Shown piece after piece: positions 1 to 64,000 of a stretch of 64,000 bases of DNA; the stretch's first letter is position 1; each line of letters begins with the position of its first letter. Source of the DNA: a virus; IMG/VR virus record IMGVR_UViG_3300042887_001883, positions 1 to 64,000 of that record. One strand, 5' to 3'. The notes beneath the pieces were generated by a model. The model made no database searches. It saw only the letters and a program-made list of their open reading frames with translations, and was not told the origin of the DNA. Both the position numbers and the translations under genes were made by a program.

Positions 1-120
1 TTTAGGTGATAATATAATCTTCTTACCTAAAAATACTCCCATATTAAACCCATCCTCTCCAGAGGATGCAGTTTGATTCAATTTATCAGGATTGGCATGA
101 TACTTATATAGATTTAACAT
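1..120 (-). CDS. Partial hypothetical gene, N-terminus only (runs off left edge)
   Basis: An ATG at 118-120 on the minus strand opens a frame that stays open to base 1 (40 residues, starting MLNLYKYHANPDKL and containing GVFLGKKIILSPK). It starts 6 bp after the stop of the 127-906 gene, so the two are probably co-transcribed leftward. The visible part is soluble and has no recognisable motif. Only the 5' end is present and no function can be assigned. Confidence 0.6.
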   Translation of the reverse strand, partial: MLNLYKYHANPDKLNQTASSGEDGFNMGVFLGKKIILSPK

Positions 121-126
121 TATTAA

Positions 127-906
127 TTACCCATGATGATAATATTTCTTAATTAACATATTCAAAAATGTTGTGTACTGTGGGAATTTTGACAAATATT
201 CAATATCACCAGGTTTATTAACAATATTAACATTTTTTTCATCTTGAAATTCGTTACGTTCCAAATGTATACAGAACTTTTGATTACCAGCATTAATAAT
301 ATATAAATGTCCAGAATGATTATAATCATCAAATTTATTTTCTGATTCTTTAGCACTAACACACCATGTAGTACCACTACCATATTCTATAGAGGTAGCT
401 TCGTTCTTAGGAATAATAACCTTAAAATTGGGTGTGTCAAATAGAATATGAATATTACCTTCTTCCTGTTCAGCCTTTAATTTAGCATTTGACCATAATT
501 CATTAGTCACATATTTGGTCTTCATAGGGTCATGCGTTACAGCATGCTTTAAATCTAATACACTATAATGTGATAAATCTGTCTTCTCAATAACACCACG
601 TTGTTTCAATTTTTCAAATTCTGCAATATCAGTAGTCAATTCATGAATATCACCCATATGGAAATGTTGACCAATATACTGATTAATTAACCATTCAATA
701 TACTTTTTACCAATATTAGCAGATAAATATTTTACCAAATCTACAGCATTACTAAATTGTGGTTTATTAGATTTATCATTATTATATGCAGTCATAATAT
801 CTTTTTCAAATTTCTGACCTAAAACATCCTCTTTAGCCTCTACTATAATATTCCAATCTATCGGCATACCTGCCAATTCTAATAATCTATTTAAATCTTT
901 CTGCAT
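127..906 (-). CDS. Phage protein of unknown function with a GTTWC motif
   Basis: A 259-residue soluble protein. Residues about 175-225 hold a block (YGSGTTWCVSAKE, then N.F..Y...G.LYIIN) that I recognise from uncharacterised proteins of large T4-like phages. The N-terminus (DLNRLLELAGM) also resembles starts seen in such proteins. The conserved Trp-Cys and following acidic and aromatic positions could form an active or ligand site, but no activity is known to me. A minus-strand GATAAATA box at 943-950, 37 bp upstream, suggests late expression. It lies next to prohead genes, so a virion or head role is possible but unproven. Confidence 0.75.
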   Translation of the reverse strand: MQKDLNRLLELAGMPIDWNIIVEAKEDVLGQKFEKDIMTAYNNDKSNKPQFSNAVDLVKYLSANIGKKYIEWLINQYIGQHFHMGDIHELTTDIAEFEKLKQRGVIEKTDLSHYSVLDLKHAVTHDPMKTKYVTNELWSNAKLKAEQEEGNIHILFDTPNFKVIIPKNEATSIEYGSGTTWCVSAKESENKFDDYNHSGHLYIINAGNQKFCIHLERNEFQDEKNVNIVNKPGDIEYLSKFPQYTTFLNMLIKKYYHHG

Positions 907-942
907 TATGATAATTCCCGTGAAGAATAATATGAATTCAAT

Positions 943-950
943 TATTTATC
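943..950 (-). promoter_or_regulatory. Late promoter box GATAAATA for the 127-906 gene
   Basis: The plus strand reads TATTTATC, so the minus strand reads GATAAATA, 37 bp upstream of the ATG at 906. This is a one-base variant of the T4 late box TATAAATA at a spacing matching the other late boxes in this window. Confidence 0.5.
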
Positions 951-1020
951 ATTGTTTAAGGGTAAAGATGGTTAGGATTATTAATATTAATATGATATTG
1001 GTTATTATCATTATGATGAA

Positions 1021-1250
1021 ACCATTAAGATGATTTAAAACCATTGATGTTGTTATGGTTATTATCATTAGGATGAAACCATTAAGATGATTAAAAGACC
1101 ATTGATGTTGTTATGGTTATTATCATTAGGATGAAACCATTAAGATGATTAAAAGACCATTGATGTTGTTATGGTTATTATCATTAGGATGATACCATTA
1201 AGATGATTAAAAACCATTGATGTTGTTATGGTTATTATCATTAGGATGGT
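1021..1250. repeat. Four-copy tandem repeat array, 57-58 bp unit
   Basis: Copies start at 1021, 1078, 1136 and 1194. Each begins accattaagatgatt and ends near ttatcattaggatg. A decayed partial copy precedes the first (about 990-1020). Copies differ by only a few bases. Each unit carries a short inverted repeat, ACCAT facing ATGGT around tgatgttgtt. The stretch 907-1297 has no credible gene; apart from the array it holds only the flanking promoter boxes. There are no unique spacers, so it is not CRISPR. Possible roles are iteron-like protein binding, a replication or recombination site, or a structured leader. Confidence 0.85.
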
Positions 1251-1258
1251 AAAGAGAG

Positions 1259-1266
1259 AATAAATA
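1259..1266 (+). promoter_or_regulatory. Late promoter-like box AATAAATA for the prohead protease
   Basis: AATAAATA lies 31 bp before the ATG at 1298. It differs by one base from the T4 late consensus, and the same variant occurs before the large terminase gene and the 31415 gene. Confidence 0.5.
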
Positions 1267-1297
1267 CCGTATTGATATTTTAAAATAGGTTAAAACA

Positions 1298-1930
1298 ATG
1301 AAAACACAATTATTAGTAGAAGATATGTTACCTGACCAATCAGGATTTATTACCGAATCTGCCACTGATGGTAAAGATATGTATATCAGTGGAATTTTTA
1401 TGGAGAGTGGGGTAAAAAATAGGAATGGGAGGATTTACCAGCTTGAAGAAATGACTAATGCAGTCAAACAAGTTCAGGAAAATATTAAGAATAATCAAAT
1501 TTTTTGGGGCGAATTGGACCATAGTAATTCATTACAAATCTCAAGTGACCGTGTTTCGCATATGGTTACCGAATTGAGAATGGAAGGTAATCAAGTATTT
1601 GGTAAGGCCAAAATTTTAGATACCCCATGTGGTAAAATCGCCAAAGTTTTAATTAAAGAATCTGGTTCGCGTATGGGCGTATCCAGTAGAGGGTCAGGTT
1701 CGGTAGATGAATCTGGAGTCGTGTCAAATTTTTCACTAATTTCTGTGGATATTGTCCTAAATCCAAGTTGTGCATCTGCTGTCCCAACTGCAATTTATGA
1801 AAGTTTAGAAGCATCTATTAAAGGCCGCCATATTCTTACATTAGCTGAACAAATACAAGAAGATTCATCTGCACAAAAATATTTAGTTACTGAATTAAAA
1901 CAATGGATGAATAGTTTTTTGAAAAAATAA
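1298..1930 (+). CDS. 21: Prohead core protease (T4 gp21-like serine protease)
   Basis: A 210-residue protein, close in length to T4 gp21. It shows the hallmarks of the phage prohead protease family: NRNGRIY near residue 41, a catalytic His in WGELDHSN (H75), the nucleophile Ser in SRMGVSSRG (S129 or S130), and a likely third residue Asp in ISVDIVLNPS (D151). In T4 this enzyme is part of the prohead core and cleaves scaffold, major capsid and internal proteins at (L/I)xE sites before DNA packaging. The start is set by the ATG after a weak AGG Shine-Dalgarno and the late-type box at 1259. The gene is flanked by the repeat array and a strong terminator, and is probably monocistronic. Confidence 0.92.
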   Translation: MKTQLLVEDMLPDQSGFITESATDGKDMYISGIFMESGVKNRNGRIYQLEEMTNAVKQVQENIKNNQIFWGELDHSNSLQISSDRVSHMVTELRMEGNQVFGKAKILDTPCGKIAKVLIKESGSRMGVSSRGSGSVDESGVVSNFSLISVDIVLNPSCASAVPTAIYESLEASIKGRHILTLAEQIQEDSSAQKYLVTELKQWMNSFLKK

Positions 1931-1947
1931 TATTCATCAATAATAAT

Positions 1948-1987
1948 AAACCATCTTAACCATAAAAATAAATGGTTAAGATGGTTT
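1948..1987 (+). terminator. Rho-independent terminator after the prohead protease
   Basis: A perfect 16-bp inverted repeat (1948-1963 with 1972-1987) with a short A-rich loop and trailing T residues, 18 bp after the protease stop codon. Confidence 0.85.
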
Positions 1988-2009
1988 TTATTATGTACAT
2001 TATAAAACA

Positions 2010-2017
2010 TATAAATA
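2010..2017 (+). promoter_or_regulatory. Late promoter consensus TATAAATA upstream of the GIY-YIG gene
   Basis: An exact T4 late box just after the terminator, but 164 bp before the ATG at 2181, much further than the other late boxes. The 1988-2180 interval holds no gene I can support. The box may drive a long leader, or may once have driven a gene that stood here before the endonuclease arrived. Confidence 0.5.
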
Positions 2018-2180
2018 GATATGGATTCGCGTAATTACCAGTTACCAATCCTCTAACCTTTTTTCAACCTTTAAACACTCGGAAGATTAGCATGAATCTA
2101 TTTATGTATATTTTTACATATAATTTACAATTCGTCAATATATTCTTAATGTTTAGGTTACAACATATAGGATATATATT

Positions 2181-4193
2181 ATGTATACTCAACTTAATAC
2201 AAAAACACCATATTTTTATATAATTCGTCATATTATCACATCAAAAATGTATGCTGGGTGTAGATATGCTAAAAAATGTCACCCATCAGAATTATTACAA
2301 CCAGACGGATATCATACATCGTCAAAAATAATTAATAATATTATTAAATCCGAAGGATTGGTAGCATTTGAGATTTTAAGAATTGATACCAATTTAGATG
2401 GTTTTGCTGCCTATGAATATGAATCTGCGTTTTTAGATATTATGAAATGTGCAACCTCTGATACTTGGTATAATAAAACTAATAATAGTTCGACATTCGT
2501 ACAAGATAAAAATACGATATTAACATGTCAATATTGTAATATCTCTATGAACACACCATCTAATTTCATAAAATATCATGGTGACAACTGTAAACACAAC
2601 CCCAATCATAAATCAACTATATATACATGTGATTATTGTGATTATACTTCTACCGATAAATCTGTTATTACGAAATACCATAATGTTAAATGTAAAAAAC
2701 ATCCTAATTATGTACAACCACAAATAGAATGTGAACATTGTGGTGTTATTTGTGGCAATACTGCATCATATAAAACTCATCATGGTGATAATTGTCCAAA
2801 AAAACCAAATTATGTACCAGCATTTATTAAATCATGCGAACATTGTGGTAAGGTATGTACTTTACCATCTCAATATACTAGAAATCATGGTCACAAATGT
2901 CCTAAAAATCCCAATTATGACCCAGTGTTATATCATTGTGATTTTTGTAATAATGATGTTACTGATTTAACTGAATATAAAAGATACCATGGTGATAACT
3001 GCAATAGTAATCCCAATAAAGTAAAACAAGTATTTTATAAAACATGTGAATTTTGCGGACACAATTGTTCATCTAAACTATTATATACTAGAGACCATGG
3101 TGCTAAATGTTTAAAGAATCCTGATTATACTCCACCAATATATCATTGTGATTGTTGTGGTCAAGATGTGTTAACTTTAACTGCATTAAAACGATTCCAT
3201 GGAGTGAAATGTAAAAAACATCCAAATTATGTTGCGGTTAAAGATGTAACATGTGAACATTGTGGGGTAGAATCCAATAAATTACTTTATAGTTTATATC
3301 ATGGTGAAAAATGCAAAAGTAACCCAAATTATGTTACCACTACAATTAAATGTGAATGGTGTGGTTATGACTGTCCTACACAATCTGAATACACTAAACG
3401 GCATGGAAATAATTGTAAAAAACATCCTGAATATAAACCAACCATTTATAAAATATGTGAGGAATGTGGTACATCATGTGAAAATAAATCACAATATAAA
3501 AATCATGGAAAGAATTGTACACAAAATATAACCTCAACATATTGTGAATATTGCAACAGAACAATTACACACAAAATGAATTTTAAAGAATATCATGGTG
3601 AAAACTGTAACCAACATCCAAAAAATTTGGTAATATATGAGTGTGGTGTGTGTGGAACCATATTATCTACACAAGGTAGTTATAATAGACATAAAAAAAC
3701 GTGTAAATTTAAATATGTTATTTTAAAAATAATATCTATATGTGATAAAGATACCATGAATCCATTATTAGATTATCCAATTACTAATAATAAGGTTACA
3801 GTCAATAAATCAAAGAAACCAATAAAATATGATACTACAGAAAAAAGAGGGTCTATGTATGGTAGACTTGGGGTTGATAATCCAAATTATGGTAAAACAT
3901 TATCAGTTGAACATAAAAAGAAAATTAGTGATGGATGTAAAAATAAAAATATTGGTGCCGCTAATAAGTCTGCTATTGAATATCACTTAACAGACCCCAC
4001 TGGCAATTTACATATTATAAAAGGAGGATTTGAAAAATTTTGTAAGGAACATAATATTTCCGAAAAAGTTTTAAGACGACATATGAATAAAGGTATTATA
4101 CCAACTATTGAAAGTAGCAGTTCTACCGAAAAAAGTAGAAACACATATGGATGGTCTGGCACCAACATTGGTAAGGTTAACGTAAAATCTTAA
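2181..4193 (+). CDS. Homing-endonuclease-like protein: GIY-YIG domain, twelve zinc fingers, NUMOD3-like tail
   Basis: A 670-residue protein. The N-terminus (about 8-100) looks like a divergent GIY-YIG nuclease domain: FYIIRHI, KMYAGCRYAKK, a Ser/Lys-rich helix and an acidic E.E..FL region. Residues about 115-510 hold twelve C2HC fingers spaced about 33 residues apart, each of the form C-x2-C, then a basic H-G-x-x-C end (for example HHGDNC). The C-terminus (about 555-670) carries GKTLSVEHKKKIS, typical of NUMOD3 DNA-binding repeats of homing endonucleases, then a NUMOD1-like block ending RRHMNKG. Start chosen by AGGAT before the ATG. It sits alone between two terminators, the usual setting of a free-standing homing gene. 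DNA cleavage is inferred; the finger array is unusually long for the class. Confidence 0.85.
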   Translation: MYTQLNTKTPYFYIIRHIITSKMYAGCRYAKKCHPSELLQPDGYHTSSKIINNIIKSEGLVAFEILRIDTNLDGFAAYEYESAFLDIMKCATSDTWYNKTNNSSTFVQDKNTILTCQYCNISMNTPSNFIKYHGDNCKHNPNHKSTIYTCDYCDYTSTDKSVITKYHNVKCKKHPNYVQPQIECEHCGVICGNTASYKTHHGDNCPKKPNYVPAFIKSCEHCGKVCTLPSQYTRNHGHKCPKNPNYDPVLYHCDFCNNDVTDLTEYKRYHGDNCNSNPNKVKQVFYKTCEFCGHNCSSKLLYTRDHGAKCLKNPDYTPPIYHCDCCGQDVLTLTALKRFHGVKCKKHPNYVAVKDVTCEHCGVESNKLLYSLYHGEKCKSNPNYVTTTIKCEWCGYDCPTQSEYTKRHGNNCKKHPEYKPTIYKICEECGTSCENKSQYKNHGKNCTQNITSTYCEYCNRTITHKMNFKEYHGENCNQHPKNLVIYECGVCGTILSTQGSYNRHKKTCKFKYVILKIISICDKDTMNPLLDYPITNNKVTVNKSKKPIKYDTTEKRGSMYGRLGVDNPNYGKTLSVEHKKKISDGCKNKNIGAANKSAIEYHLTDPTGNLHIIKGGFEKFCKEHNISEKVLRRHMNKGIIPTIESSSSTEKSRNTYGWSGTNIGKVNVKS

Positions 4194-4205
4194 CAAACTA
4201 TTTTT

Positions 4206-4245
4206 AACCCTTCTAACCATCAATATAATGGTTAGAAGGGTTTTT
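4206..4245 (+). terminator. Terminator after the GIY-YIG gene
   Basis: A 15-bp inverted repeat (4206-4220 with 4228-4242; AACCCTTCTAACCAT arm) followed by a T run, 12 bp after the stop codon. Confidence 0.85.
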
Positions 4246-4280
4246 ATATTCTTCATTATTTACAATTATCAAATAGTATA

Positions 4281-4310
4281 AAAAAAGCCCCTCCTACGGA
4301 GGGGCTTTTT
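4281..4310. terminator. Second, bidirectional terminator between convergent genes
   Basis: GCCCCTCC (4287-4294), loop TAC, GGAGGGGC (4298-4305), with an A run on the left and a T run on the right. It can therefore stop both the rightward endonuclease transcript and the leftward gp67-like transcript. Confidence 0.9.
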
Positions 4311-4337
4311 CAAAGTATCTTAATTATTAAGTATCAA

Positions 4338-4655: not shown

Positions 4656-4698
4656 ATTTTTAAGGCTCCGTTAACGGTTGTATATAATCATGATAATA

Positions 4699-4706: not shown

Positions 4707-4745
4707 TCAAAATGATTACGGTATGATTTTTTGATGTATTTATAT

Positions 4746-4753: not shown

Positions 4754-4784
4754 TAGGATACAAATTATCATTAGGGTAAAAAAG

Positions 4785-10481: not shown

Positions 10482-13400
10482 ATGTATCACCCATCAAACA
10501 CCCCATATAATACTATAGCTGAAGGAATCGTACATGATACCAATGACCCACAACGTAGAGGCAGAATTAAAGTTTTTTGTCCAGTATTTGGGGATATTCC
10601 GGGTACCTTAGTAGAAGATTTACCATGGTGTAGATATATTACCCCATATGGAGGCATGGTAAATTCTGATGTAATGGGTAGAGGGCCTTCTGATACCCCA
10701 ACTGATGGTAGTGTAGCTTATGGAATGTGGGCTATCCCTAAAATTGGGACGATGGTGGCGGTAATGTGTTTAAATGGAGATGCCTCCCGTAGGGTATATA
10801 TTGGATGTATGCCACCAGCATATTCTGAACATACTTTACCACATGGTAGATTTATTGAAAATGATGGCCCATTATCATCATCAGAAAAACCCATTCAGCC
10901 ATTATATGATAATATGAAGAAGGCTTTTGGTAAGGATAGGGCAAAATTTGAATATCAAACCAGAGGTATGGATTATAGTGTTACTGGATTATCCCAAAAG
11001 AATATTGATGCAGGATTAACTAATTCTAAGAAAAAGGATGAAAAAATAGGATATAAGAAATCTAGGATTCAACCTGATTTAAAATATAATGATAGGGAGG
11101 ATGATACTAATTATGATAGTCAAACATGGTCCTTTACTACCCCAGGATTCCATTCTATATCAATGGATGATAGTCAGGACAATAGTAGAATAAGAATAAG
11201 AACATCTAGTGGGCACAATATTATATTTGATGATACTAATGAGAGGATTTATATTAACACTGCCGAAGGCAATAATTGGATAGAATTGGACCAAAATGGT
11301 TCTATTGACATTTATTCTAGTAAATCAATATCTATCAATTCTGATGAGGATATTAATTTAAATGCTAAGAAAGCTATTAGGATGCATGCTAATGATATTC
11401 ATATTAATGCGGATAATGATGTAAATGTAACAGCAGTTAAGGATATTAATATAAATGCTGAAAATATTGCATCGACAGCTAAAGAAGAATATTCTATAAA
11501 AACCAAAAATTTGGATATGTTTATCAAGAATGCTTTGAAGGTTACTGCAAAAACCATTGGTATACGTGGTAAAGATGCAATGAGTTTATCTAGTAAGAAA
11601 AGTATATTAAAAGGTACTGATACCTTATTCATGAAAGGTGATAAAACTAGTGTTACTGGTTCGAGTATCATGGATGTGTTTGGTAAAAAAATAAATATTA
11701 AGGGTGAAACTATTGTTAATATGAATGGTAAGGTGGTGGATGTTTCTGCATCACAATCATTGATAACAACAGGTCCTAAAATTGTATCTACTGTTAAAAC
11801 GGTAGAAATACCGGCTGCTGACCCGAATGCCTCTGCGGATGCTGCACCTATTGAGCAACCAGTTACCGAAACACCAGATGTTTTGGGTTCTATGACTGAT
11901 GATGCTAAACAAACAATTACTGATGAAACCGGATTGACTGAGGATGACTTTGGTGGAATGTCTGGTTCTGATTTTAGTGATGCTATTCAAGGTATGATGG
12001 CTATTCCAGAATCTGGTACTGCTATGAATAATGTTTTATCATCATTATCCCCAGAAGAATTAAACAATGTATTACAAAATACTACAGATTTATCACAATT
12101 AATTAATAATGTTCCTGATATTGCGAATATATTAAATTCTATGAATCCAGCAGATTTAGAAAATTTAATAAAAGATAATCCTGATGTTGCAGATACCTTA
12201 GCAAACTTAGATTCTGGTGGAGATGTATTGAAAAATATCCCGGATATTGGTGATACCTTAGAAAATATGGATGACCTTAATAATATGGTTGATAATATGA
12301 ATAGTGATTCCGTTGGTGATTTGTTATCAAATGTATCTAGTGCTAATATGGATAATGTATTTGATAAATCATCTGACACTAATACCTTATTATCAAAAAT
12401 ACCTAGTAAGGATATGGGGAAAATATTAAGTAATGCCACCCCATCAAAGGCAGCATCATTATTGATGAATAGTTCTGATACCAATAATATTATTTCTAAT
12501 ATTCCATCATCCGATAGAGCTTCATTATTTGAACGGATGGATTCTGATACTATTGGTCAAATAATGGGTAATGTATCTGATGATAATATAGGGGAAACAC
12601 TATCAACATTATCATCTAGTAAAGTTAATGAAGTTGTTCAACAGTTACCAGTATCAGTATTTGGTAATGCACTATCAAAAATATCCACTAATAAATTAGA
12701 TAATTTGGATGATATTGATAATGTGAATATGGATGATATTAAATCTAGTATTGCTACTGAATCATTTAATGATGAAAATATGACGAAGGCAGATATTGGT
12801 GAAACATTAGCTAATATGGATGTTGATGAGTTAGAAAATACATTAGATAATTTAGATGATGTTGGTGAAACATTATCCACTATTCCAGGATGTCATGCTG
12901 GTAGTGTTTTACGAAAAATAAATGACCCTAATTCATTATTAAAAACATTATCTAGTAAACATGTTGGTAATATTCTCACAAATGCCCCTGGTGGGGATGT
13001 AACAGAAATTAGTGATAATGGTACGGGTGAGGTGTTATCTAATCTTGATGGTGATGATTTGGGTAATATTATGAATAATATGACTGGTGCTGATGTTAGT
13101 AGCATGTTGAACAGTATGCCAGATTATAGTAGTAAAGTATTTTCAAATATTCCGGGTTCTGCATTAGCTGAGATTGTTGGTAAAATACCAGAACAAGATA
13201 TTAATGATATCATATCTAATATGTCAGATAATGAAATAATAGATAAAGTATCATCTTTGAGTCCTACAGAAATGGGAGATTTTTTGGCAGCATTACCAAG
13301 TAATTTAGCATCAGATATTTTAGATAAGATGAACAATAGCAATATAGATAATTTATCATCATCTATTTCCCCTGATGCATTAGGTAATATGGTTAGTGGT

Positions 13401-13580
13401 ATGGAATATGATAGTGATGCTATTTCTATTACTGCAAAAATTGCAGCATATCCTTCAAGAATCCCACTTCATGAACCATGGGGACGAACAGATACTAAGA
13501 GTGATGATGATATGTCACCTAAATATGATTATGATTCTATAGAAAAAGATTCAACCCGTAACAAATATTGGAAAAGATAA
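10482..13580 (+). CDS. 5: Baseplate central spike protein (T4 gp5/VgrG-like) with a long helical-repeat insertion
   Basis: A 1032-residue protein. Residues about 10-130 form the gp5-type OB-fold (DPQRRGRIKVFCPVFG, then GMWAIPKIGTMVAV). Residues about 215-430 are the repetitive beta-helix of the spike, with regular alternation such as SISINSDEDINLNAKKAI. Residues about 470-970 are an array of short Asp/Asn/Leu-rich helical repeats, roughly 20 residues each, absent from T4 gp5. The C-terminus (SRIPLHEPWGRT) resembles ends of other phage spike proteins. T4 gp5 (575 residues) has a lysozyme domain between OB-fold and helix; here there is none. It would form the membrane-puncturing trimer under the tail tube. 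It overlaps gp25 by one base (TAATG). Confidence 0.88.
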   Translation: MYHPSNTPYNTIAEGIVHDTNDPQRRGRIKVFCPVFGDIPGTLVEDLPWCRYITPYGGMVNSDVMGRGPSDTPTDGSVAYGMWAIPKIGTMVAVMCLNGDASRRVYIGCMPPAYSEHTLPHGRFIENDGPLSSSEKPIQPLYDNMKKAFGKDRAKFEYQTRGMDYSVTGLSQKNIDAGLTNSKKKDEKIGYKKSRIQPDLKYNDREDDTNYDSQTWSFTTPGFHSISMDDSQDNSRIRIRTSSGHNIIFDDTNERIYINTAEGNNWIELDQNGSIDIYSSKSISINSDEDINLNAKKAIRMHANDIHINADNDVNVTAVKDININAENIASTAKEEYSIKTKNLDMFIKNALKVTAKTIGIRGKDAMSLSSKKSILKGTDTLFMKGDKTSVTGSSIMDVFGKKINIKGETIVNMNGKVVDVSASQSLITTGPKIVSTVKTVEIPAADPNASADAAPIEQPVTETPDVLGSMTDDAKQTITDETGLTEDDFGGMSGSDFSDAIQGMMAIPESGTAMNNVLSSLSPEELNNVLQNTTDLSQLINNVPDIANILNSMNPADLENLIKDNPDVADTLANLDSGGDVLKNIPDIGDTLENMDDLNNMVDNMNSDSVGDLLSNVSSANMDNVFDKSSDTNTLLSKIPSKDMGKILSNATPSKAASLLMNSSDTNNIISNIPSSDRASLFERMDSDTIGQIMGNVSDDNIGETLSTLSSSKVNEVVQQLPVSVFGNALSKISTNKLDNLDDIDNVNMDDIKSSIATESFNDENMTKADIGETLANMDVDELENTLDNLDDVGETLSTIPGCHAGSVLRKINDPNSLLKTLSSKHVGNILTNAPGGDVTEISDNGTGEVLSNLDGDDLGNIMNNMTGADVSSMLNSMPDYSSKVFSNIPGSALAEIVGKIPEQDINDIISNMSDNEIIDKVSSLSPTEMGDFLAALPSNLASDILDKMNNSNIDNLSSSISPDALGNMVSGMEYDSDAISITAKIAAYPSRIPLHEPWGRTDTKSDDDMSPKYDYDSIEKDSTRNKYWKR

Positions 13581-20000: not shown

Positions 20001-20433
20001 AGCTGCTTATAGTTCATTAATGAATAAAAAAATGATATCTGATGAATTAGTTATTAAATCTGGAAAATTGAAAATATTGTTTGGTTCACAAGCATCAGCA
20101 GATTTACAAGCAAAATTCATTATTATTAAGTCTAATAATGCTTATTATAATGATAATCAAATAAAGTCTATTATTGTTAGTTCAGTATATGAATTCTTTG
20201 ATATTAATTTATGGAATTTTGGGGATACTTTTAATTTTACGGAATTATCTACTTATATTCATAATAAATTAAATTCGAACGTTAGTTCAGTTCTTATTAG
20301 ACCAAAAAATGATTTACAACATTTTGGTGAATTATTCCAAGTATTTTCCATGGAAGATGAAATATTAATTCCATCAATTACTGTTGATGATATCGAAATT
20401 GTCCCATACTTAGCCGCATCATATCTATCATGA
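17005..20433 (+). CDS. 6: Baseplate wedge protein gp6-like, enlarged
   Basis: A 1142-residue protein; T4 gp6 has 660. The N-terminus is clearly gp6: FINFAAYDYSTVKQALIDYV, then FIESDELIAILESFAYISEL, then ISYNPSRNMPG..LVKI. gp6 dimers form the continuous ring of the baseplate wedge. Extra sequence includes residues about 749-856, a copy of the beta-domain that recurs in the adhesins (LQWHTEKPLA through ILTLSQDAL). The C-terminal part (RPKNDLQHFGELFQVFSM, EDEILIPSI) again looks like conserved wedge sequence. Start at 17005 because the late box at 16960 lies downstream of the in-frame ATG at 16918. The stop overlaps the next ATG (ATGA). Confidence 0.9.
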   Translation: MAINLSKAESWDQRFKTNNFINFAAYDYSTVKQALIDYVKLYHPEQFQNFIESDELIAILESFAYISELYSYRLDSVANENLLSTAQRKDSILNLAKFISYNPSRNMPGVGLVKITSISTTENIYDINGTNLANTTVLWNDSNNSNWKSQFFAIIDSVIKSTFGDVTPNNRVQVYDQIFESYTLNNVPLTNGVIPYQIQYQNKNIAFELVSSLLDENGPYEQTPTSYTTGNNFNIIYGTDGLGDSSDYTGFFILTKQGTLSKTTTIKFDGVTPHQKYSPNFTNVNNIDVWLNQLKTNSAPVTWSAVETVNSQNIIFNDNTKKNVYQIETLDNDAINLVFGDGEFSNIPNGTFECWARLSDPDPIPIPKSAISEIKTNITYLDGLDNIQNVILTFSAVHAIQNSSASEDASHIKINAPAVYSTQNRMVNGSDYNSFLLQDNTILKLNSVNRTYSGQSKYTDFNDPSDTYHNINHFGTDLSIYVEDEVKNISNIKISSALTILNNIEAELLPLKECELYRTSHGLTVRRTLTDVEKHNILFNYMGQKYWATDNNPSNPVYPIIIKLENDTYLAKNYSSVDDNWLFYIDYKNEKYEIKYKVTNINVNSKSTKFWNNNIDSDNITILHTNTSNVRTKNNTTLLKSNIVLPVIKEVLYKTPIKLKGSLDVHSLNVELPNNDYNQILPLLNNAISLTIPEVENYFDGAEYYRLFGRVFDVPFDSYDVKFPTIELDYSFLTMDVDVVSTSASSSNTLQWHTEKPLAVIDVFDNAFVGQISITSEKSIFNTDYPFTTTTGKSNLLSIMATDHTDAEAIIKNITTTKISATQNKLVLEVSITVMNNDFKTGILTLSQDALLETIADLDRSYAMPIWSNLSGLSNSITVTNLGDSATINILIKDYVYFHRPSIDDAFEIVTEDTHKIGWYNEYMNKVSSVTALYKRCPGRSNINYVWQHSPTIDNRINPSSSNIIDCFVITNGYYKSMINWIKGSLATKPSQPLPHELRAAYSSLMNKKMISDELVIKSGKLKILFGSQASADLQAKFIIIKSNNAYYNDNQIKSIIVSSVYEFFDINLWNFGDTFNFTELSTYIHNKLNSNVSSVLIRPKNDLQHFGELFQVFSMEDEILIPSITVDDIEIVPYLAASYLS

Positions 20434-21308
20434 CATATAATTTGAAAAAAACGGCATCCACATCAACTGATTATGTTGTTGCTAATCATAAATTAAATAC
20501 AGATACTATGTTATCGTTTGTTGGTAAATCCTATGTTGGATATGGTGATGAATTACAACAAAATACGTTAGATTTGTTGTGTAATTTCCATACCCAATTC
20601 GATGATTATTCCAAAGCTATTCCTGGCCAATTAATCTACGATGGTACTAATTTAAAATTATGTACTGGGGATAAGTCTTTTGTTAATTTATTATTACTAC
20701 CGTGTGATAAAGCCGTAAATAGTGCTCCTACTGGTACCGTTACAATATCCGGTAGTTTAAGAGTTGGTGAAGTATTGACTGCTTCTAACACCATTAATGA
20801 TGCTGATGGAATAGAAGGAAGTATAATATATGATTGGTTCTTAAATGGTTCAACTGTTGGAACTGGGAACACGTATACTCCATTGGCTACTGGTGCGGTA
20901 ATAGTAAAAGCATCGTATAAAGATGGTTTAAGTAATTCTCAATCTGTTAATAGTGCCCCTAGAACTGTTGCCGCAGCAAATAATAAACTCACTTGGACCA
21001 TTACCTCTCCATTTGAAGAAACTGCTGCTAATGATGGGACTATTATGGGTGAATTAACCATTAATGCACATAATTGTACCTTTAGTAGTACGTATCCATA
21101 TAATGCATCTATCGGTAAAAGTGCATTATTGCGTCTTACTGGGGTGGTAGATGTTATGGAAAATCCTATTACTATATCCACCGTAGATTCAACTATTGTT
21201 TCCAAAACATCAACACAATTAGTGGTAAAAGTCATTTTTAAAACAAATAGTAACTATGATTTTACTAACGGTACATTTATATTAACCACCGATGCAGTAG
21301 GATATTAA
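20430..21308 (+). CDS. Short tail adhesin: attachment module, Ig-like domain, beta-domain
   Basis: A 292-residue protein translationally coupled to gp6 by an ATGA overlap. Residues about 25-80 are a slightly diverged attachment module (FVGKSYVGYGDELQQN, PGQLIYDG). Residues about 95-180 are an Ig-like repeat (VGEVLTASNTINDADG to YDWFLNGS). Residues about 185-292 are the recurring beta-domain (LTWTITSPFEE... through FILTTDA). There is no separate tip domain, so it may carry the neighbouring proteins or act as a short fibre. Role inferred from architecture. Confidence 0.7.
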   Translation: MTYNLKKTASTSTDYVVANHKLNTDTMLSFVGKSYVGYGDELQQNTLDLLCNFHTQFDDYSKAIPGQLIYDGTNLKLCTGDKSFVNLLLLPCDKAVNSAPTGTVTISGSLRVGEVLTASNTINDADGIEGSIIYDWFLNGSTVGTGNTYTPLATGAVIVKASYKDGLSNSQSVNSAPRTVAAANNKLTWTITSPFEETAANDGTIMGELTINAHNCTFSSTYPYNASIGKSALLRLTGVVDVMENPITISTVDSTIVSKTSTQLVVKVIFKTNSNYDFTNGTFILTTDAVGY

Positions 21309-38968: not shown

Positions 38969-41620
38969 TTAGTTTGAAATAGAATCGCCAGTTCTTACTA
39001 ATGTGATTGGAATGTAAATGAATTCCACTGTTTTAGTAGGTTTCAATGCAATTTGAACTTCTAATTCATTTCTGTCAATCATATCGGCAGTATTGTTAGA
39101 AGAATCACATAGTACCGCAAATTCATATAATCCACGACCTACTTGAATACTATGTAAGAATGATGTTACAACTGATGTCAATCCTTTTCTAGTAATATCA
39201 TCATTAGGTTGCATTAAATAATTATATGCTATTTTTCTAACACCACGTCTAATATAGGCAACCATTCGGGAAACATTCAAACGGTCTAAAGATGAATTGA
39301 ATGCTAAATTAACTCTGGTTTTTTGACCCCAAACAGCAATACCATATTGTACCGAATCATGAATAGGATTGATATTACATGCATTATACAAACTATCTCT
39401 CATACCTTGATTCAATCGTACACGTTCGAAGGTTGCCGCAGATGTACCGATTGCACCATTTGCAGTATTAACATAACCTACCGCAGATACACTGGAAATA
39501 CCAGATAATGAACCACGGTTAGGACCAGCAGGTGCGGCCCATACATTACCAATACTATCACTATACGCCATGACAGTTAACGCCATTGCTGATGATGGAC
39601 ATAACACATCATAACCATCTAAATTAGATGTATAACCATGTGGATAGTAATATGCAATCAAACCACGGTTATCAGAACGAATATTATTACCAGTAGAAAC
39701 AACAGAACTTTCATTAACTTGTTGTCCCCATCTAATAGCATCTCTTGGTGATAAGTCCATAGGAACATCACCAATAACAATAGTTTCTTGATTAACTCTA
39801 TCAGCTAATGTCAATAATTCATCCGCTACTTCAGGAAAACCGGGGCATAACATGATATTGAATTCATAACCTTCAGAGGCAATATCACTACCAAATTCAG
39901 GTTTAATATCCATATTCAAACTAGCATTATCTTGAATTACTTGTGCTAAACGTCTAACTACTTCTAATCTACGGGTAGCATCGGTATTATTAGATGTTAA
40001 ATTAAAACTACCAGATTGCAATGCATTAGATGGATGTGTAACAAAAAACCAACTATCAGTTTTAATATAATCACGGAATGCAGTATCTACCAAACTACCA
40101 AATTGTGCAACACTCAAACCTTGTTTAGTATTAACAAAATTAGTAATATTTAATGAGCCGCCAAAGTTTGAAGTACCATTACCAACTAATGGCGATGATG
40201 TGTTTGCTGCAACAGTTAATTCACCAATATTGGTCGTTACTGAAGTTAGTGTATCTGTATAGAAAATAGTGAATACTTTTCCATCAGTATTGGTAAAATT
40301 GAATACATTGCCAGTTACTTCTTTGGCATATAACAAACTTTTCGTTACATCTTTGATAATACCAGTAAATTTACCAACAATGGTAGTACCGTGATATCTG
40401 TTACCAGATACAACATAATCTACTGTTGCTACAGATTGTGTTGTAGCATTAGGTAATGATGCATCAGCAGGTGGTAAAAATACATTTTTTACATAACCAG
40501 TGATTTGTAAAACATCATTATAACCAGAAGGTAATGATAATGTTAATGATGATGGTAATGTATTATAACTAACTGTTACTGAACCCAATGAATATGGATG
40601 TAATTTAGATTCTAATAAACCTTTAGTACCAAAGAATGGAGTAGTTTTTGAAGAGTCATTAGTTAAAATGTCAGAAATAGCTGTTCTTACTTGGGTGTGA
40701 ATAGTTCTAGCACCTTCTAATAAGATATCATGAACTTTTACATCTGATGTATATGATGATGCAGAACTACCGGTCAATGTTGTAGAATAGATAGGGTCTT
40801 GATATTTGAAATAAGTATATTTCATTCCATCAGGATTAGAACCATCTTTTGATATAGTATTGTAGAAATTACCACCTAGTACTGCTGATAAATTGAATTT
40901 TAAATTAGCTGAATTGGTATATCTATCTTTGAATGAACTTGTTGATTGTGAATATTGTTCAATAGCTACATCAATAATTTCATCTAAAATATCATTATAA
41001 TATTCTTTACTAGCTACACCGGCATGATATGCTACGATGCTTGCTTTTTGTGCTGCCGATAATGTTGAGTCCGCAGTAGTACGAATTTCGCCAGTAGTGG
41101 TATCAATCAAATCTGATGTCAAGGTGAATAATTCATGCCCACCTAAGAATTGTTTTTCTGGGGATGTATCACCATTGTTACGTTGACTTAACTCTTGACC
41201 AGCCAATTGTTTAGCAACATTTACTGCATCAACCGTAGATTTTTCCCATAATAATTGCAAACTTTCAACGTCATCATCCAAATCAATATTTGCACGAATA
41301 ACGTATGCACGACTACCAACTTTTAAAAATTGATTTAATGCTAATAAACCATATTCGTTTCTGCAATCACCATGATAAGGTTGGTCATAAACATCACGAT
41401 AAAAAACTGGTACACCATATAATTCAATACTTTCTCTTAATGATGTTACTAATCTCGGAACCCCAGCTTCAATCGTACCTTGCGCTAGGACGTTTGAATT
41501 TGGTTGGGTCTTTCCATATTTGGTTGCGATAAAAAATAGAGGCACAGTATTGGAGGTGGTAGCAGTATAAATAGATTTATCTGTTACCGTCACCTGTACG
41601 CCTGGGCTTAATAATGCCAT
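38969..41620 (-). CDS. 18: Tail sheath protein gp18-like
   Basis: An 883-residue contractile sheath subunit; T4 gp18 has 659. The N-terminus is typical (MALLSPGVQVTVTDKSIYT, then VPLFFIATKYGKT, ESIELYGVP). The C-terminal domain, the most conserved part of sheaths, is present: WGQKTRVNLAFNSSLDRLNV, RMVAYIRRGV, and a final beta-strand VEFIYIPITLVRTG. Extra length lies in the middle outer domains (about 300-500). CAGGAG precedes the ATG and CATAAATA lies upstream on the same strand. It is inverted relative to the tube gene, whereas T4 has 18 and 19 in tandem. Confidence 0.93.
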   Translation of the reverse strand: MALLSPGVQVTVTDKSIYTATTSNTVPLFFIATKYGKTQPNSNVLAQGTIEAGVPRLVTSLRESIELYGVPVFYRDVYDQPYHGDCRNEYGLLALNQFLKVGSRAYVIRANIDLDDDVESLQLLWEKSTVDAVNVAKQLAGQELSQRNNGDTSPEKQFLGGHELFTLTSDLIDTTTGEIRTTADSTLSAAQKASIVAYHAGVASKEYYNDILDEIIDVAIEQYSQSTSSFKDRYTNSANLKFNLSAVLGGNFYNTISKDGSNPDGMKYTYFKYQDPIYSTTLTGSSASSYTSDVKVHDILLEGARTIHTQVRTAISDILTNDSSKTTPFFGTKGLLESKLHPYSLGSVTVSYNTLPSSLTLSLPSGYNDVLQITGYVKNVFLPPADASLPNATTQSVATVDYVVSGNRYHGTTIVGKFTGIIKDVTKSLLYAKEVTGNVFNFTNTDGKVFTIFYTDTLTSVTTNIGELTVAANTSSPLVGNGTSNFGGSLNITNFVNTKQGLSVAQFGSLVDTAFRDYIKTDSWFFVTHPSNALQSGSFNLTSNNTDATRRLEVVRRLAQVIQDNASLNMDIKPEFGSDIASEGYEFNIMLCPGFPEVADELLTLADRVNQETIVIGDVPMDLSPRDAIRWGQQVNESSVVSTGNNIRSDNRGLIAYYYPHGYTSNLDGYDVLCPSSAMALTVMAYSDSIGNVWAAPAGPNRGSLSGISSVSAVGYVNTANGAIGTSAATFERVRLNQGMRDSLYNACNINPIHDSVQYGIAVWGQKTRVNLAFNSSLDRLNVSRMVAYIRRGVRKIAYNYLMQPNDDITRKGLTSVVTSFLHSIQVGRGLYEFAVLCDSSNNTADMIDRNELEVQIALKPTKTVEFIYIPITLVRTGDSISN

Positions 41621-44537: not shown

Positions 44538-44572
44538 TAGCCTTTAATAATAGTAAATCTTATTAAAGGCTA
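44538..44572. other. 13-bp perfect hairpin overlapping the HNH gene stop codon
   Basis: TAGCCTTTAATAA (44538-44550) pairs with its complement at 44560-44572, which contains the HNH gene stop (44570-44572). It is AU-rich with no flanking T run, so it may protect or regulate the endonuclease mRNA 3' end rather than terminate. Confidence 0.6.
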
Positions 44573-46060
44573 TCCATAATTTGCAAACTCACCATGATAT
44601 GCTGAAGCAGCCTCACAGTAGGCTTGGTGAGCATCTTCAGGAGTTGGGAAGAATCCTAGACTAACTGTTTTTCCATTATTATCTCTAATGACAGATTTCC
44701 AAGTATTATTATCAACTTTCTGGACACCTTTATATCCTGTGGTATTATGTGATTTCTTACCAATATTTTGCACATTTTGACGAGGGGTGGCTTCTCTCAA
44801 ATTATCCCAATTATTATTAAGTTTATCACCATCAATATGGTCAATAAATTTATCCGTGTCCTTACCTGTCATTAATTTCCAAATAACTCTATGTAAGAGA
44901 TATGTGCTATAATTAATAGTAAATCTATAATATCCATGCGAATTAATGGTATTAATTTCTTTACCAGCCGTTTGTGAATTGGTAGTAATCATATTACTAC
45001 TATTTTTAAAATGGTGTAATGGGCGTTCTTTCCATACTGCTATACCAGTTTCTGGATTGTAATCAATACATTCTTTTAAATATTCTAATGATAAATCAGC
45101 TAATTCTGTTTTTTTAGCATCATTTGTTCTACCTACTGATGCTTCACGCAAATTTTCGAATCTATTGTTTAGTTTATTACCATCAATATGTTCAATTGTA
45201 TTAGTAGGATATTCACCATTCATCAATTTCCAAATAACGCGATGTGCATAATTTTTTATACCATTAACTTTAAATGAAATATACCCATTACCAGAAATTC
45301 CAACAATAATGGTTCCGGGATACTTATTATTAAACTCATTACATTTACCAACAGTATTAAAATGGTGTACTGGTCTTGTTTTCCATATCAATTCACCAGT
45401 TTCTTTGTTATATTCCACACATTCATTTATATAATCTAATGATAATTCATTAGATGTTTTTTTCTTTTTATCGAAAATACTACCTGCATTTTCATTAAAT
45501 ATTGGCATATGATTTCCATAATTCGCAAATTTCCCATGCAATTCTCTTGCAGCAGTACAATATGCTGCATATGCTTCATCTTCTGTACGATATGTACCTA
45601 ATTCATAAGTAACACCGTTATTTTTAATTTGTGCTCGATAACGATTAGTGGATTTTTTATATGACACACCTTTCTTTTTATCACTATTCAATTGTGTATT
45701 TCTATTACTGTTGTTATTAGATGATGATGCTTCTCTCAAATTATCCCATTTATTATTTAATGGGTCATTATCAATATGGTCGATACTATCGGTAGGGTCA
45801 CTATGTGTCACATATTTCCAAATCAATCTATGTAATGAATACCGTTGACCGTTTAATACAATGTGTACATAACCATTGGCATGTGGTTGAACATCAATAA
45901 CAGTATTAGCACGTTTTTTATTTTCTCGTTCCATGACATGTTCATTCGCATAATGATGTAATGGACGCGATTTCCATGTGCAAAGACCTGTATTTTTATC
46001 ATAATCGAAACATTCGTGAATAAATTCTACTGATGGTATTTTTTTTACTATTGTTGCCAT
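44570..46060 (-). CDS. Homing endonuclease with three HNH units and two AP2 domains
   Basis: A 496-residue protein built from repeats. HNH units lie at about 10-120, 210-315 and 315-430, each with W(K)(S/T/E)RP(L/V)HH near the front and an HNH core: DHIDNDPLNNKWDNLREAS, EHIDGNKLNNRFENLREAS and DHIDGDKLNNNWDNLREAT. AP2 DNA-binding domains follow the first and third units (about 125-190 and 435-496). All three units keep the His, Asn and His-like positions. The ATG at 46060 has AAAGGAT upstream; the longer frame from 46099 begins before the probable transcript start. It sits between terminase genes 16 and 17, antisense to them, as a free-standing mobile gene, with its own sigma70 promoter. Confidence 0.9.
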   Translation of the reverse strand: MATIVKKIPSVEFIHECFDYDKNTGLCTWKSRPLHHYANEHVMERENKKRANTVIDVQPHANGYVHIVLNGQRYSLHRLIWKYVTHSDPTDSIDHIDNDPLNNKWDNLREASSSNNNSNRNTQLNSDKKKGVSYKKSTNRYRAQIKNNGVTYELGTYRTEDEAYAAYCTAARELHGKFANYGNHMPIFNENAGSIFDKKKKTSNELSLDYINECVEYNKETGELIWKTRPVHHFNTVGKCNEFNNKYPGTIIVGISGNGYISFKVNGIKNYAHRVIWKLMNGEYPTNTIEHIDGNKLNNRFENLREASVGRTNDAKKTELADLSLEYLKECIDYNPETGIAVWKERPLHHFKNSSNMITTNSQTAGKEINTINSHGYYRFTINYSTYLLHRVIWKLMTGKDTDKFIDHIDGDKLNNNWDNLREATPRQNVQNIGKKSHNTTGYKGVQKVDNNTWKSVIRDNNGKTVSLGFFPTPEDAHQAYCEAASAYHGEFANYG

Positions 46061-46097
46061 AATTTTAAATCCTTTGTATCTAGTTAAATGAGATTTC

Positions 46098-46125
46098 ATT
46101 ATACCATATTTATTTTGTTTGTCAA
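46098..46125 (-). promoter_or_regulatory. Consensus sigma70 promoter for the HNH endonuclease
   Basis: On the minus strand: TTGACA (46120-46125), 16-bp spacer, TATAAT (46098-46103). Both hexamers are perfect. Host RNA polymerase should use it from the start of infection. Confidence 0.85.
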
Positions 46126-46222: not shown

Positions 46223-47869
46223 ATGTCATCCAATATTTTGTTAAAAAAATCAGGCATCGTTGACGAATATTCACGAGACCAAGTAAAAGAAATGCTGTTA
46301 TGTGCTACCGACCCTAAATATTTCATAGAAACATATTGCAAAATCGTACATCCAATTAAAGGTTTAGTACCATTTGCATTATATGATTACCAAAAAGAAA
46401 TGGTGGATATGTTTCATCACAATCGTTATTTCATTGGAGTCCTCAGCAGACAAATGGGGAAAAGTCAGCTCTCATGTGCATATATGTTGTGGTATGCTAT
46501 CTTCAGCCCACTCAAAACTATTTTAATCGTTTCTAATAAATCAGCAGGTAGTAAAGAAATGATTAATCGTATAATTTTCATGTATGAACATTTACCACAT
46601 TGGTTAAAACCCGGCATTAATGAAAATAATTGGAATAAAACATCGATAGCATTCGATAATGGTAGTAAAATTATCGCTGAAGCTACTACAGAAAACTCTG
46701 GTCGTGGTTTCGCTATTAGTATGGTATACATGGACGAATTTGCATTCGTTAATCCAAATATTGCAGAATTGTTCTGGACATCTATTTCCCCAGTAATTAA
46801 TTCTGGTGGTAAATGTATTATCACATCTACTCCTAATGGTTCAGATAATTTATTTGCGGAATTGTATAGAGGGTCAGAAAACGGTTCTAATGGATTCGTG
46901 AATCTATTTGTCACTTGGGATAAAATGCCTGGAAGGGATGCTAAATTTAGAGAAGATGAGATTGCCAAAATCGGTGATTTAAAATTCCGCCAAGAATATG
47001 AATGTGAATTCATCTCCTCAGACCCTCTCTTATTCTCCTCTATATTTGTAGCATCTTATAAGGTACCACAGCAACCTTCTCCTGATGCTAGAGGAATATT
47101 GTGGTACGAAGAATTAGAAAGGAATAATACCTATTTGATAGCTATGGACCCGGCTACCGGGTCAGGGTCAGATTTTACAGTAATGGTCATGTATAGTTTT
47201 CCAGAATTGAAACAGGTTGCAGAATTTCGTTCTAATACAACATCAACCTCTGCAGTATATAACATATTGAAATATATGTTAAAATGTTTAATGGCTAAGA
47301 GGGTCGAGAATGTTTATTGGAGTTTTGAAAATAATGGATTGGGTGAATCTATTATTGCATTATATGAGGCTGATGAAAATCCAGTAGACTGTGGTGAATT
47401 ATTGTCCGAATCTGGTAAGAAACGGATAGGGTTTGCTACTACTGGAAAATCTAAACCTAAACACTGTATGAACTTGAAAAATCTTTTTGAAGGTGGTAAA
47501 CTTAAAGTACGGTCTGCACAGACTGTTACAGAGATGAAACATTTCATACGTCGAAATGGTTCTTATGCTGCCAGAAATGGTAGTACTGATGATACTATTT
47601 CAGCACATATCATATTATTGAGAATTTTAGAAGAATTGGTACAATATGAAGATAAGGCATATGCTTTAATGTATGAAGATGATTTTATAAATGAATTTGA
47701 AAATGAAGACTCTTATGATGCTCCCCCAGCTATTGTAGGTAGTGGTGATGGTGAAGATTTTATGGATTATAGAAATCCTTGGGGGAATATGGAAGATAAA
47801 TGGAAAGATGACGCATCCGAGTATCATGAAAATTATAATAATGCTTTGGTTAATAATCCTTACCTGTAA
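46223..47869 (+). CDS. 17: Large terminase subunit gp17-like (packaging ATPase/nuclease)
   Basis: A 548-residue protein; T4 gp17 has 610. ATPase motifs: Walker A SRQMGKSQ (about 75-82), Walker B MVYMDEF with D170/E171, and coupling motif ITSTPNG (about 199-205). Nuclease domain: AMDPATGSGSDFTVMV (about 307-322), a second acidic motif ENNGLGES (about 365-372) and STDD (about 453-456), the RuvC/RNase H-like set. It pumps DNA into the prohead at the portal and cuts the concatemer. An acidic, Asn/Tyr-rich tail follows. AAAGGAATT precedes the ATG. It is split from gp16 by the leftward HNH gene. Confidence 0.96.
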   Translation: MSSNILLKKSGIVDEYSRDQVKEMLLCATDPKYFIETYCKIVHPIKGLVPFALYDYQKEMVDMFHHNRYFIGVLSRQMGKSQLSCAYMLWYAIFSPLKTILIVSNKSAGSKEMINRIIFMYEHLPHWLKPGINENNWNKTSIAFDNGSKIIAEATTENSGRGFAISMVYMDEFAFVNPNIAELFWTSISPVINSGGKCIITSTPNGSDNLFAELYRGSENGSNGFVNLFVTWDKMPGRDAKFREDEIAKIGDLKFRQEYECEFISSDPLLFSSIFVASYKVPQQPSPDARGILWYEELERNNTYLIAMDPATGSGSDFTVMVMYSFPELKQVAEFRSNTTSTSAVYNILKYMLKCLMAKRVENVYWSFENNGLGESIIALYEADENPVDCGELLSESGKKRIGFATTGKSKPKHCMNLKNLFEGGKLKVRSAQTVTEMKHFIRRNGSYAARNGSTDDTISAHIILLRILEELVQYEDKAYALMYEDDFINEFENEDSYDAPPAIVGSGDGEDFMDYRNPWGNMEDKWKDDASEYHENYNNALVNNPYL

Positions 47870-61515: not shown

Positions 61516-61522
61516 TACCAAT

Positions 61523-63436
61523 ATGAAATATTCTATACCATACACTGATACATCAAAAAGTCCCATTGAAATAGAAACCAACACCATTAATACTGATACC
61601 ATATTAAAATTATATGGTCAGGGTTCAGTAAACTATGGGGCGGAATTATGGATTAATTTATTAAAACTTTTAGACCATACATGTAGTGGTGGTGTTAATA
61701 ATTCTGGACCATTGAAACCCATTGAGGGTCAATTATGGTATAATAATTATTCAACCACCTTAAATTTATATAAAACTAACAAATGGGTTCCTATTGTAGA
61801 TAGCCAATATTTGGAAAGTCTTTATGGTACCGGTGGACTTGATGGATTATTGAAAAAAATCGCAGATGCATTATTAGACGATACTACCCCAATGGTTAAA
61901 AGTCTCATAGCAGAATTAAATAAATATTTATTACCATTAACTGGTGGTACAGTATCTGGAAAATTATACTTACCTAAAATAAGTTCGTTAGCAACATTCT
62001 ATGATAAAGCAAAACTCACTGATAAAAATAAGGTTTGTACAATAGAATATCTAAAATGGTTTGTACTAGAATTTGCTAAAAATTATGTACCGCCAAATTC
62101 CCCAGGATTTGATGATAGTCCATTTGGTATAGGGTACGATACGGACCCGACATTATTAGCCGAAGTTTCACCATATGTACCATTAAACATTGTATTACCT
62201 ACTGTTATTACTGGAAGTAATATTACTTTTAGTAATAATGTAATAGCTAATAAGGCTACCGTAGATTTAGTAACAACTAATAATGATGCTATTAATAAAA
62301 AATATTCTGATGACCATACATCAGCATCAGCATTAATGGATATTTTTAAGAATTCAACACCATTCAAAAATGCAATTTCTGGCGAAATTGATAAATTAAT
62401 TAATGCTCCGGCAAACCAATCTACATCAACATCTCCTACTTTAAAATCATATAGCATAACCGATGATGCTATTAAAAATGGTAAAGGTATCACCCCTACT
62501 GATACTGGATTGTCCCTTGCTATAACCCCCCAATCCATAAAATCTAAATTTTTAATAAACATATCATTAACATTATCAAATGGTGATAAACCTGGTACTG
62601 CAATAGGAACATTATATAAAAACAATACCATATTATTACCAAATTTTTGTGTAGTAGATGGGACTAAATTCGATTCTATGCCATATGGTGTCACTTTTAT
62701 AGATAGTGTCACTTCCACTGATAAAGTAACATATGTTGTAAAAGTAAATGGGAACGATGCTAGTGGTGAATGGTTCGTAAATCAATCATCTGATATTACC
62801 AATAAATCAATATCATCGATGACTATTATGGAATTTATTGGAGATACTATAATAACTAAAGGTACTAGTAATTCTGTGGCTTCTATCCTACCAACTACTA
62901 TTGGTGACGTTTATAACGGTGGCGTTTATATAGGTGATATTACAGATGGTGGTGTTAAATATAGATTAATACTATCACCAAAATCAACTGAACTTAATAT
63001 GCAATATATAACTAATAAAGGTTCATCGGTAGGTAATAGAACAAATAATACGATTTCACGTACAAATGGTCCAGAAAATACGAGAATTACATCACAGAGT
63101 ATATTAGATGGATTCTTAGCAGCATGGTATTGTTCAAGATTAGACATAAATGGATATTCTGATTGGTATTTACCAGCAGCAGATGAATTAGTAGTTATGA
63201 GTGTGAATCGAAAAGCACTGTTGACTGGTCCCAATAAAATGGAATGGCTTACCACTTTTAATGGTGGTACTGGAAGTTATACTGCATATTCTGGTGGGTT
63301 TTATTGGTCTTCTACCGATGATGGTAGTGTTCTAACTGCTCTAAAGGTACATTGTCGTGATTATGCATCGAGTGCGGTAACAGAGGTCAAAGAAACTGTT
63401 TGTCATGTTAGAGCAATCAGACGTGAACCATATTAA
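61523..63436 (+). CDS. Tail adhesin: module, shaft, jelly-roll-like domain, DUF1566-type tip
   Basis: A 637-residue protein if the ATG at 61523 is used. This start aligns MKYSIPYTDTSKS with the starts of its neighbours; an ATG at 61508 overlapping the previous gene is possible and neither has a clear ribosome site. Module (LYGQGSVNYGAELWIN, LLDHTC, GQLWYNN), shaft (LLPLTGGTVSGKLYLP), jelly-roll-like domain (IKSKFLINISLTLSNGD, SSMTIMEF), then a DUF1566/Lcl_C tip directly, without a Thr linker (YNGGVYIGDI, DWYLPAADELVVMS, FYWSSTDDGS, VRAIRREPY). The tip shares its framework with the 56523 protein but differs in loops. A terminator follows. Confidence 0.77.
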   Translation: MKYSIPYTDTSKSPIEIETNTINTDTILKLYGQGSVNYGAELWINLLKLLDHTCSGGVNNSGPLKPIEGQLWYNNYSTTLNLYKTNKWVPIVDSQYLESLYGTGGLDGLLKKIADALLDDTTPMVKSLIAELNKYLLPLTGGTVSGKLYLPKISSLATFYDKAKLTDKNKVCTIEYLKWFVLEFAKNYVPPNSPGFDDSPFGIGYDTDPTLLAEVSPYVPLNIVLPTVITGSNITFSNNVIANKATVDLVTTNNDAINKKYSDDHTSASALMDIFKNSTPFKNAISGEIDKLINAPANQSTSTSPTLKSYSITDDAIKNGKGITPTDTGLSLAITPQSIKSKFLINISLTLSNGDKPGTAIGTLYKNNTILLPNFCVVDGTKFDSMPYGVTFIDSVTSTDKVTYVVKVNGNDASGEWFVNQSSDITNKSISSMTIMEFIGDTIITKGTSNSVASILPTTIGDVYNGGVYIGDITDGGVKYRLILSPKSTELNMQYITNKGSSVGNRTNNTISRTNGPENTRITSQSILDGFLAAWYCSRLDINGYSDWYLPAADELVVMSVNRKALLTGPNKMEWLTTFNGGTGSYTAYSGGFYWSSTDDGSVLTALKVHCRDYASSAVTEVKETVCHVRAIRREPY

Positions 63437-63445
63437 TAGTTATGG

Positions 63446-63478
63446 ATAAAAAAGCCCCTCTTCGAGGGGCTTTTTTTA
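63446..63478. terminator. Bidirectional terminator at the end of the second adhesin cluster
   Basis: GCCCCTC (63454-63460), loop TTC, GAGGGGC (63464-63470), A run left and T run right, between convergent genes. Confidence 0.9.
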
Positions 63479-63487
63479 TCATATTTT

Positions 63488-64000
63488 TTAGTATAATCTA
63501 GCCATACCCATCTTTGTAGTATTAAATTTTATAACAGTTGTATTATTATCAATATGTGTTACTGATAATGGAGTATAGATTACATTATTAATAAACACTT
63601 CTACTGTTGGTATAAATCCTAATTGGTGATGAATAGTCCATATGGTTGAAGATATAGTAGAATTATACTCAAATATATTAGTTGTTGATGGTGATGCAAT
63701 ATGAGTAACATCTAATTTATCGGTGCTTTCTACTTCAATTTCTAAAGTATATGTCAAATACCATGTGCTAACGGCAGGTTTATCCAATGGGTCGAATATT
63801 AAATGGGTTAATAATCGTGGTGCTTCTTTATCCGGTTTATTAGGATTATTCTTATCTTTACGCAAATTATCGGCAAGCCAGTTGTCCATATTTTTAACAT
63901 TATGTGGTTTTTCGACAACGGTAAATGCTTTTAAATTTTTGAACAACCAATTGCTTGGTGGGGTTTTAGGTATTTGAATATCTATTTTATTTTGTTCACA
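63488..64000 (-). CDS. Partial gene, C-terminus of a probable tail or fibre protein (runs off right edge)
   Basis: The minus-strand frame has no stop between 63488 and base 64000 and no convincing start, so about 170 C-terminal residues are visible. They include WLADNLRKDKN, WYLTYTLEIEV and a final domain IWTIHHQLGFIPTVEVFINN ... FNTTKMGMARLY. This last pattern (H.LG..P.V.V, then a final G.A.L strand) is common at the ends of phage tail-fibre and receptor-binding proteins. It lies beside the adhesin cluster. Function inferred only. Confidence 0.65.
   Translation of the reverse strand, partial: CEQNKIDIQIPKTPPSNWLFKNLKAFTVVEKPHNVKNMDNWLADNLRKDKNNPNKPDKEAPRLLTHLIFDPLDKPAVSTWYLTYTLEIEVESTDKLDVTHIASPSTTNIFEYNSTISSTIWTIHHQLGFIPTVEVFINNVIYTPLSVTHIDNNTTVIKFNTTKMGMARLY

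Follow-up and report, generated by a model that had tools for sequence, protein, structure and literature searches.

A clade of uncultured T4-related jumbo phages lacks GATC and three six-base palindromes, consistent with avoidance of host Type II restriction

Why should a long stretch of phage DNA hold not a single GATC? The window analyzed here, i.e. the first 64,000 bases of a 74,197-bp virus contig (IMGVR_UViG_3300042887_001883; GC 31%), was originally predicted to lack this tetranucleotide, and direct counts bore this out: neither the window nor the entire contig contains any GATC (0 in each). The number expected in the window is 186 for independently drawn bases and 213 under a maximal-order Markov model, and the proposed comparison of 4-mer counts with a Markov expectation placed GATC lowest among all 256 tetramers. 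Other four-base palindromes are present in the window, as had been stated (GGCC 22, CATG 161, GTAC 224, CTAG 119, GCGC 7, and CGCG 5).

The contig covers part of the genome region in which a T4-related jumbo phage (myovirus) encodes its structural proteins. Pfam matches identified a prohead protease, a gp25 baseplate wedge, a tail sheath, a sheath stabiliser, a terminase, a lysozyme, and many fibre-like proteins. A non-temperate life style may go with the T4-type structural genes and the lysozyme, which come from an incomplete genome. No tRNA genes were found. Four of its genes are referred to below:

1298..1930, + strand, prohead protease (Peptidase_S77; Pfam PF03420, E 4.8e-24), in which the Asp-Gln pair at 1334 is residues 13-14
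38969..41620, - strand, tail sheath (Pfam PF17482), the bait for close relatives L069-L073, all GATC-free
44570..46099, - strand, HNH/AP2 homing-type endonuclease (Pfam HNH_3 and AP2)
46223..47869, + strand, terminase large subunit (Pfam PF03237 and PF17289), used for phage placement

By terminase, the nearest named phage is Xanthomonas jumbo phage XacN1 (45.6% identity), followed by Stenotrophomonas CM1 and RAS14, Agrobacterium Atu_ph07, and Pseudomonas PA5oct. A host search with the terminase in GTDB genomes gave only two distant matches, both to metagenome-assembled genomes. The HNH/AP2 gene is the only clear nuclease of its kind adjoining the terminase gene and, judged by its family, is not a GATC restriction enzyme; PADLOC homing endonuclease models match members of the contig set. 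At 10482-13580 the window encodes a baseplate-type protein with an N-terminal Phage_base_V match and repeated MgtE_N matches near the C-terminus.

We fetched relatives using the window proteins and obtained clade contigs with about 76 to 99% nucleotide identity. GATC is absent from 14 of 14 further clade contigs, which together with the window contig amount to 298,029 bases, about 178 kb of them with little redundancy. The clade contigs extend past both ends of the window contig into genes for the portal, gyrase/topoisomerase, DnaB, RecA, and NAD metabolism, so that the absence is not confined to structural genes. In contrast, the nearest relatives outside the clade, two contigs of a sister clade (G009 and G010), the terminase of which is 60% identical to that of the window phage, have genes with 535 GATC against an expectation of 523, indicating that the loss is specific to the clade of the window phage. 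A search for early genes of the clade, with the DNA polymerase and RNR of the sisters as queries, retrieved no clade contig.

When synonymous codons are permuted without altering any protein or the total codon counts, the contig genes are expected to hold 135 GATC, divided among the three codon phases as 90, 32, and 15; all three phases are empty in the observed genes. An artefact of base composition, codon usage, or assembly has next to no chance of being the explanation. The independent-base, Markov, and codon-preserving nulls together with the sister comparison rule out a compositional origin, with none of 200 shuffles of the contig genes giving fewer than 116 sites. Moreover, the 14 other clade contigs come from eight IMG/VR datasets and agree, the sister phages are normal when treated alike, and near-miss words are common.

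The predicted switch of Asp from GAT to GAC before a codon starting with C turned out to be exact, with 92 GAC and 0 GAT in that position and 1350 GAT and 96 GAC elsewhere, whereas the sister phages use 371 GAT and 52 GAC before C. In the other two codon phases of the contig genes, Ile is never encoded by ATC after a G, and a codon of the form xGA never stands before TC. Codon-aligned positions that have GATC in a sister and encode the same amino acids in the clade number 17, and all 17 carry a synonymous change in the clade, mostly to GACC.

In order to count gains, we aligned the window contig with three clade contigs over about 68.5 kb, comprising about 11,200 substitutions. Single substitutions created 0 GATC versus 189 expected from the substitution rates, and for control palindromes the ratio of observed to expected gains was 0.4 to 1.6. 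Selection against GATC has thus gone on within the clade. The original prediction proposed long selection against one site; its duration stands, given the clade-wide absence, the missing gains, and the synonymous replacements, but the single site does not, because three further palindromes are gone.

These palindromes, AAGCTT, CAGCTG, and TCTAGA, whose loss the original prediction did not see, are each found 0 times in the 74,197-bp contig and clade-wide. Codon shuffles of the clade pool predict 345 GATC, 36.9 AAGCTT, 43.7 CAGCTG, and 29.8 TCTAGA, of which none is observed; for each of the four, the count is therefore below 0.1 of an expectation above 15, our threshold for elimination. No six-base palindromes other than these three combine a zero count in the clade with normal numbers in the sisters, which hold 31 AAGCTT, 29 CAGCTG, and 50 TCTAGA. 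Gains are also missing in the clade alignments (0 for each, versus 10.9, 5.4, and 18.5 expected, respectively). One-base neighbours are frequent (AAGCTA 73, CAGCTA 81, and ACTAGA 102), which limits the loss to the exact sites, and a single degenerate motif for AAGCTT and CAGCTG was rejected since the hybrid of the two, AAGCTG/CAGCTT, is frequent, with 38 occurrences. The absence of the four palindromes is therefore complete, exact, clade-wide, and ongoing, and comes neither from protein sequence nor from codon usage.

A scan of words 4 to 7 bases long, with or without gaps, revealed no other that is wholly absent at comparable expectation, and Type I or other gapped motifs were rejected on this ground. 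CTTAAG was discarded as a fifth site because it is scarce in the sisters too. For CACGTG (1 of 8.4 expected) and GAGCTC (0 of 5.0 expected), the clade-pool expectations are too low for judging.

AAGCTT, CAGCTG, and TCTAGA are the sites of HindIII, PvuII, and XbaI, respectively, and GATC is that of DpnII/MboI/Sau3AI. The loss of three classic Type II sites besides GATC implies several restriction specificities rather than a GATC-only cause, and we infer, with a probability of roughly 85%, that sites recognised by several Type II restriction-modification systems of its hosts, with these specificities, were purged from the lineage. When phage DNA enters a cell with such an enzyme, one unmethylated site could suffice for cleavage; each newly arisen site would then be removed by selection, often synonymously (as by GAT to GAC before C), and a lineage that meets several Type II systems of its hosts again and again would come to show the observed pattern. 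In published cases, the sites eliminated are nearly always those of orthodox Type II systems, and the clade pattern matches this (PMC6286503). The original prediction favoured a host GATC-cutting enzyme, and such an enzyme is still the best explanation for the GATC part.

The methyl-directed version of that prediction, in which a DpnI-type host enzyme would restrict phage DNA marked at GATC by a host methylase, fared less well. Phages of hosts with Type IIM enzymes for GATC do show a deficit of this word (PMC6286503), but this version leaves the three six-base sites unexplained and no phage Dam gene was found on the clade contigs, making it very improbable here. The suggested search for a phage adenine methylase came up empty: the window contig and the other clade contigs, which are genome fragments, contain no Dam-type methylase gene (MethyltransfD12, PF02086), with a positive E. 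coli control. The phage does not appear to rely on a Dam-type methylase of its own for protection.

A nuclease of the phage itself, encoded elsewhere in its genome, could likewise destroy host DNA by cutting at GATC, with GATC removed from the phage for self-protection. Such a gene could sit in the unseen part of the incomplete genome. However, there is neither a DpnII-family gene nor a PF02086 methylase on the clade contigs (genome fragments), a DpnI search of the same fragments, run without a positive control, gave no match, and four nucleases would be needed for four sites; we regard this origin as highly unlikely.

Mismatch repair offers another route to GATC loss. Host Dam/MutHLS could act either through MutH, which would cut undermethylated GATC while phage DNA replicates fast, or through evasion of repair by phages that lose GATC, the six-base sites then being a separate matter. 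Phages of Dam-positive enterobacteria resemble our clade in this respect: phiX174 is GATC-free, and its mutation rate falls when sites are put back (PMC5014478), and T7 holds 6 of 155 expected GATC. Their loss is linked to Dam/MutHLS repair, whereas the clade studied here also lacks the sites of three more enzymes, and repair does not explain why AAGCTT, CAGCTG, and TCTAGA were lost in parallel and just as completely. In addition, T7 retains a few sites but none is left in 298 kb here, suggesting that each individual GATC is costly. Mismatch repair is therefore an unlikely cause, though somewhat less so than the phage nuclease or the DpnI-type enzyme.

Some observations count against restriction by host Type II enzymes. 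The terminase-based host search led to no restriction gene. Another is the normal GATC content of the sister clade, which presumably infects similar hosts. Sister G010 (L101 to L107) encodes QueC at 20377-21009 along with members of the GTP cyclohydrolase I and PTPS families, a gene set hinting at 7-deazaguanine chemistry and possibly modified DNA. The sisters may tolerate GATC through guanine modification, although no match to PF01702 (TGT/DpdA) was found in G010 and the corresponding region of the clade lies outside its contigs.

A further one is the avoidance of non-palindromic words, which a restriction-site model does not predict. In the window contig, G026, and G030, AAGCG/CGCTT occurs 0 times for 37.5 expected and ACGCT/AGCGT 0 times for 34.0 expected, and AGCG/CGCT is reduced to 28 of 131 expected. 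The sublineage without AAGCG and ACGCT consists of the window contig, G003, G004, G008, G026, G027, G029, and G030; G028, otherwise close to it, has one ACGCT, and more distant clade members carry AAGCG/ACGCT words. These words were matched to no known system. As a tentative and rather doubtful extension, the missing sites could form a readable barcode of the host restriction repertoire (GATC, AAGCTT, CAGCTG, and TCTAGA), to which a defence system reading an asymmetric site would have added the purge of AAGCG/ACGCT on both strands in the sublineage. If true, this would be selection on an asymmetric site, which is rarely seen for avoidance.

Site elimination in phages is already well documented, and the clade is a new and unusually clean example. 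In non-temperate dsDNA phages, palindromic Type II sites are likewise at or near zero with other words normal (Rusinov et al. 2018, PMC6286503). Our case differs from those in that four sites are at exactly zero across an uncultured clade with a normal sister clade, and in that the host enzymes are ones we infer. Since at least four sites are at exactly zero in an uncultured jumbo phage lineage and not in its sister, the pressure can be placed on the tree, and the set of missing sites is specific enough for predicting host enzymes. Assigning hosts to phages that have not been cultured could become easier with lists of absent sites. The value of the case lies in this clean, multi-site, clade-level pattern and in its link to the more extreme XacN1, and the parts worth following are the multi-site barcode and the asymmetric-word signal.

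XacN1 (AP018399) resembles the clade in having 0 of 1492 expected GATC in 384,670 bp and no CAGCTG, but it keeps AAGCTT (17) and TCTAGA (15 in 50 kb, as for AAGCTT). Its genome was counted in 18 pieces, leaving out sites that span the 17 borders, and for 21 non-GATC six-base palindromes, each with an expectation of about 91 to 101, the count is 0 (L213, L236 to L252). The XacN1 genome paper makes no mention of GATC or palindromes. Staphylococcus phage K is also large, of similar GC, and free of GATC (0 of 143 expected in the 50 kb counted); it differs in belonging to an unrelated family with a Gram-positive host, in keeping AAGCTT and TCTAGA, and in lacking GGCC and CGCG over the same 50 kb. 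Among the fetched virus loci with at least 15 expected GATC, clade members and near-duplicates included, 37 of 162 have none, indicating that total GATC loss is recurrent and not unique to this lineage.

Microcystis phage LMM01, considered as a candidate from the same type of host, was set aside because it has 102 GATC together with the other three sites. Many T4-like contigs among the RNR relatives (L124 to L195) have 0 GATC but keep TCTAGA; the nearest named phage by RNR is Methylophilales phage Melnitz (65.7%), which has 4 of 162 expected GATC in 50 kb. GATC is near normal in the stretches read of RAS14 (92 of 95 expected), PA5oct (70 of 78), and Atu_ph07 (73 of 90). In the 26 kb of Atu_ph07 (L255), with its near-normal GATC, it is CTAG that is scarce, at 6 of 90 expected.
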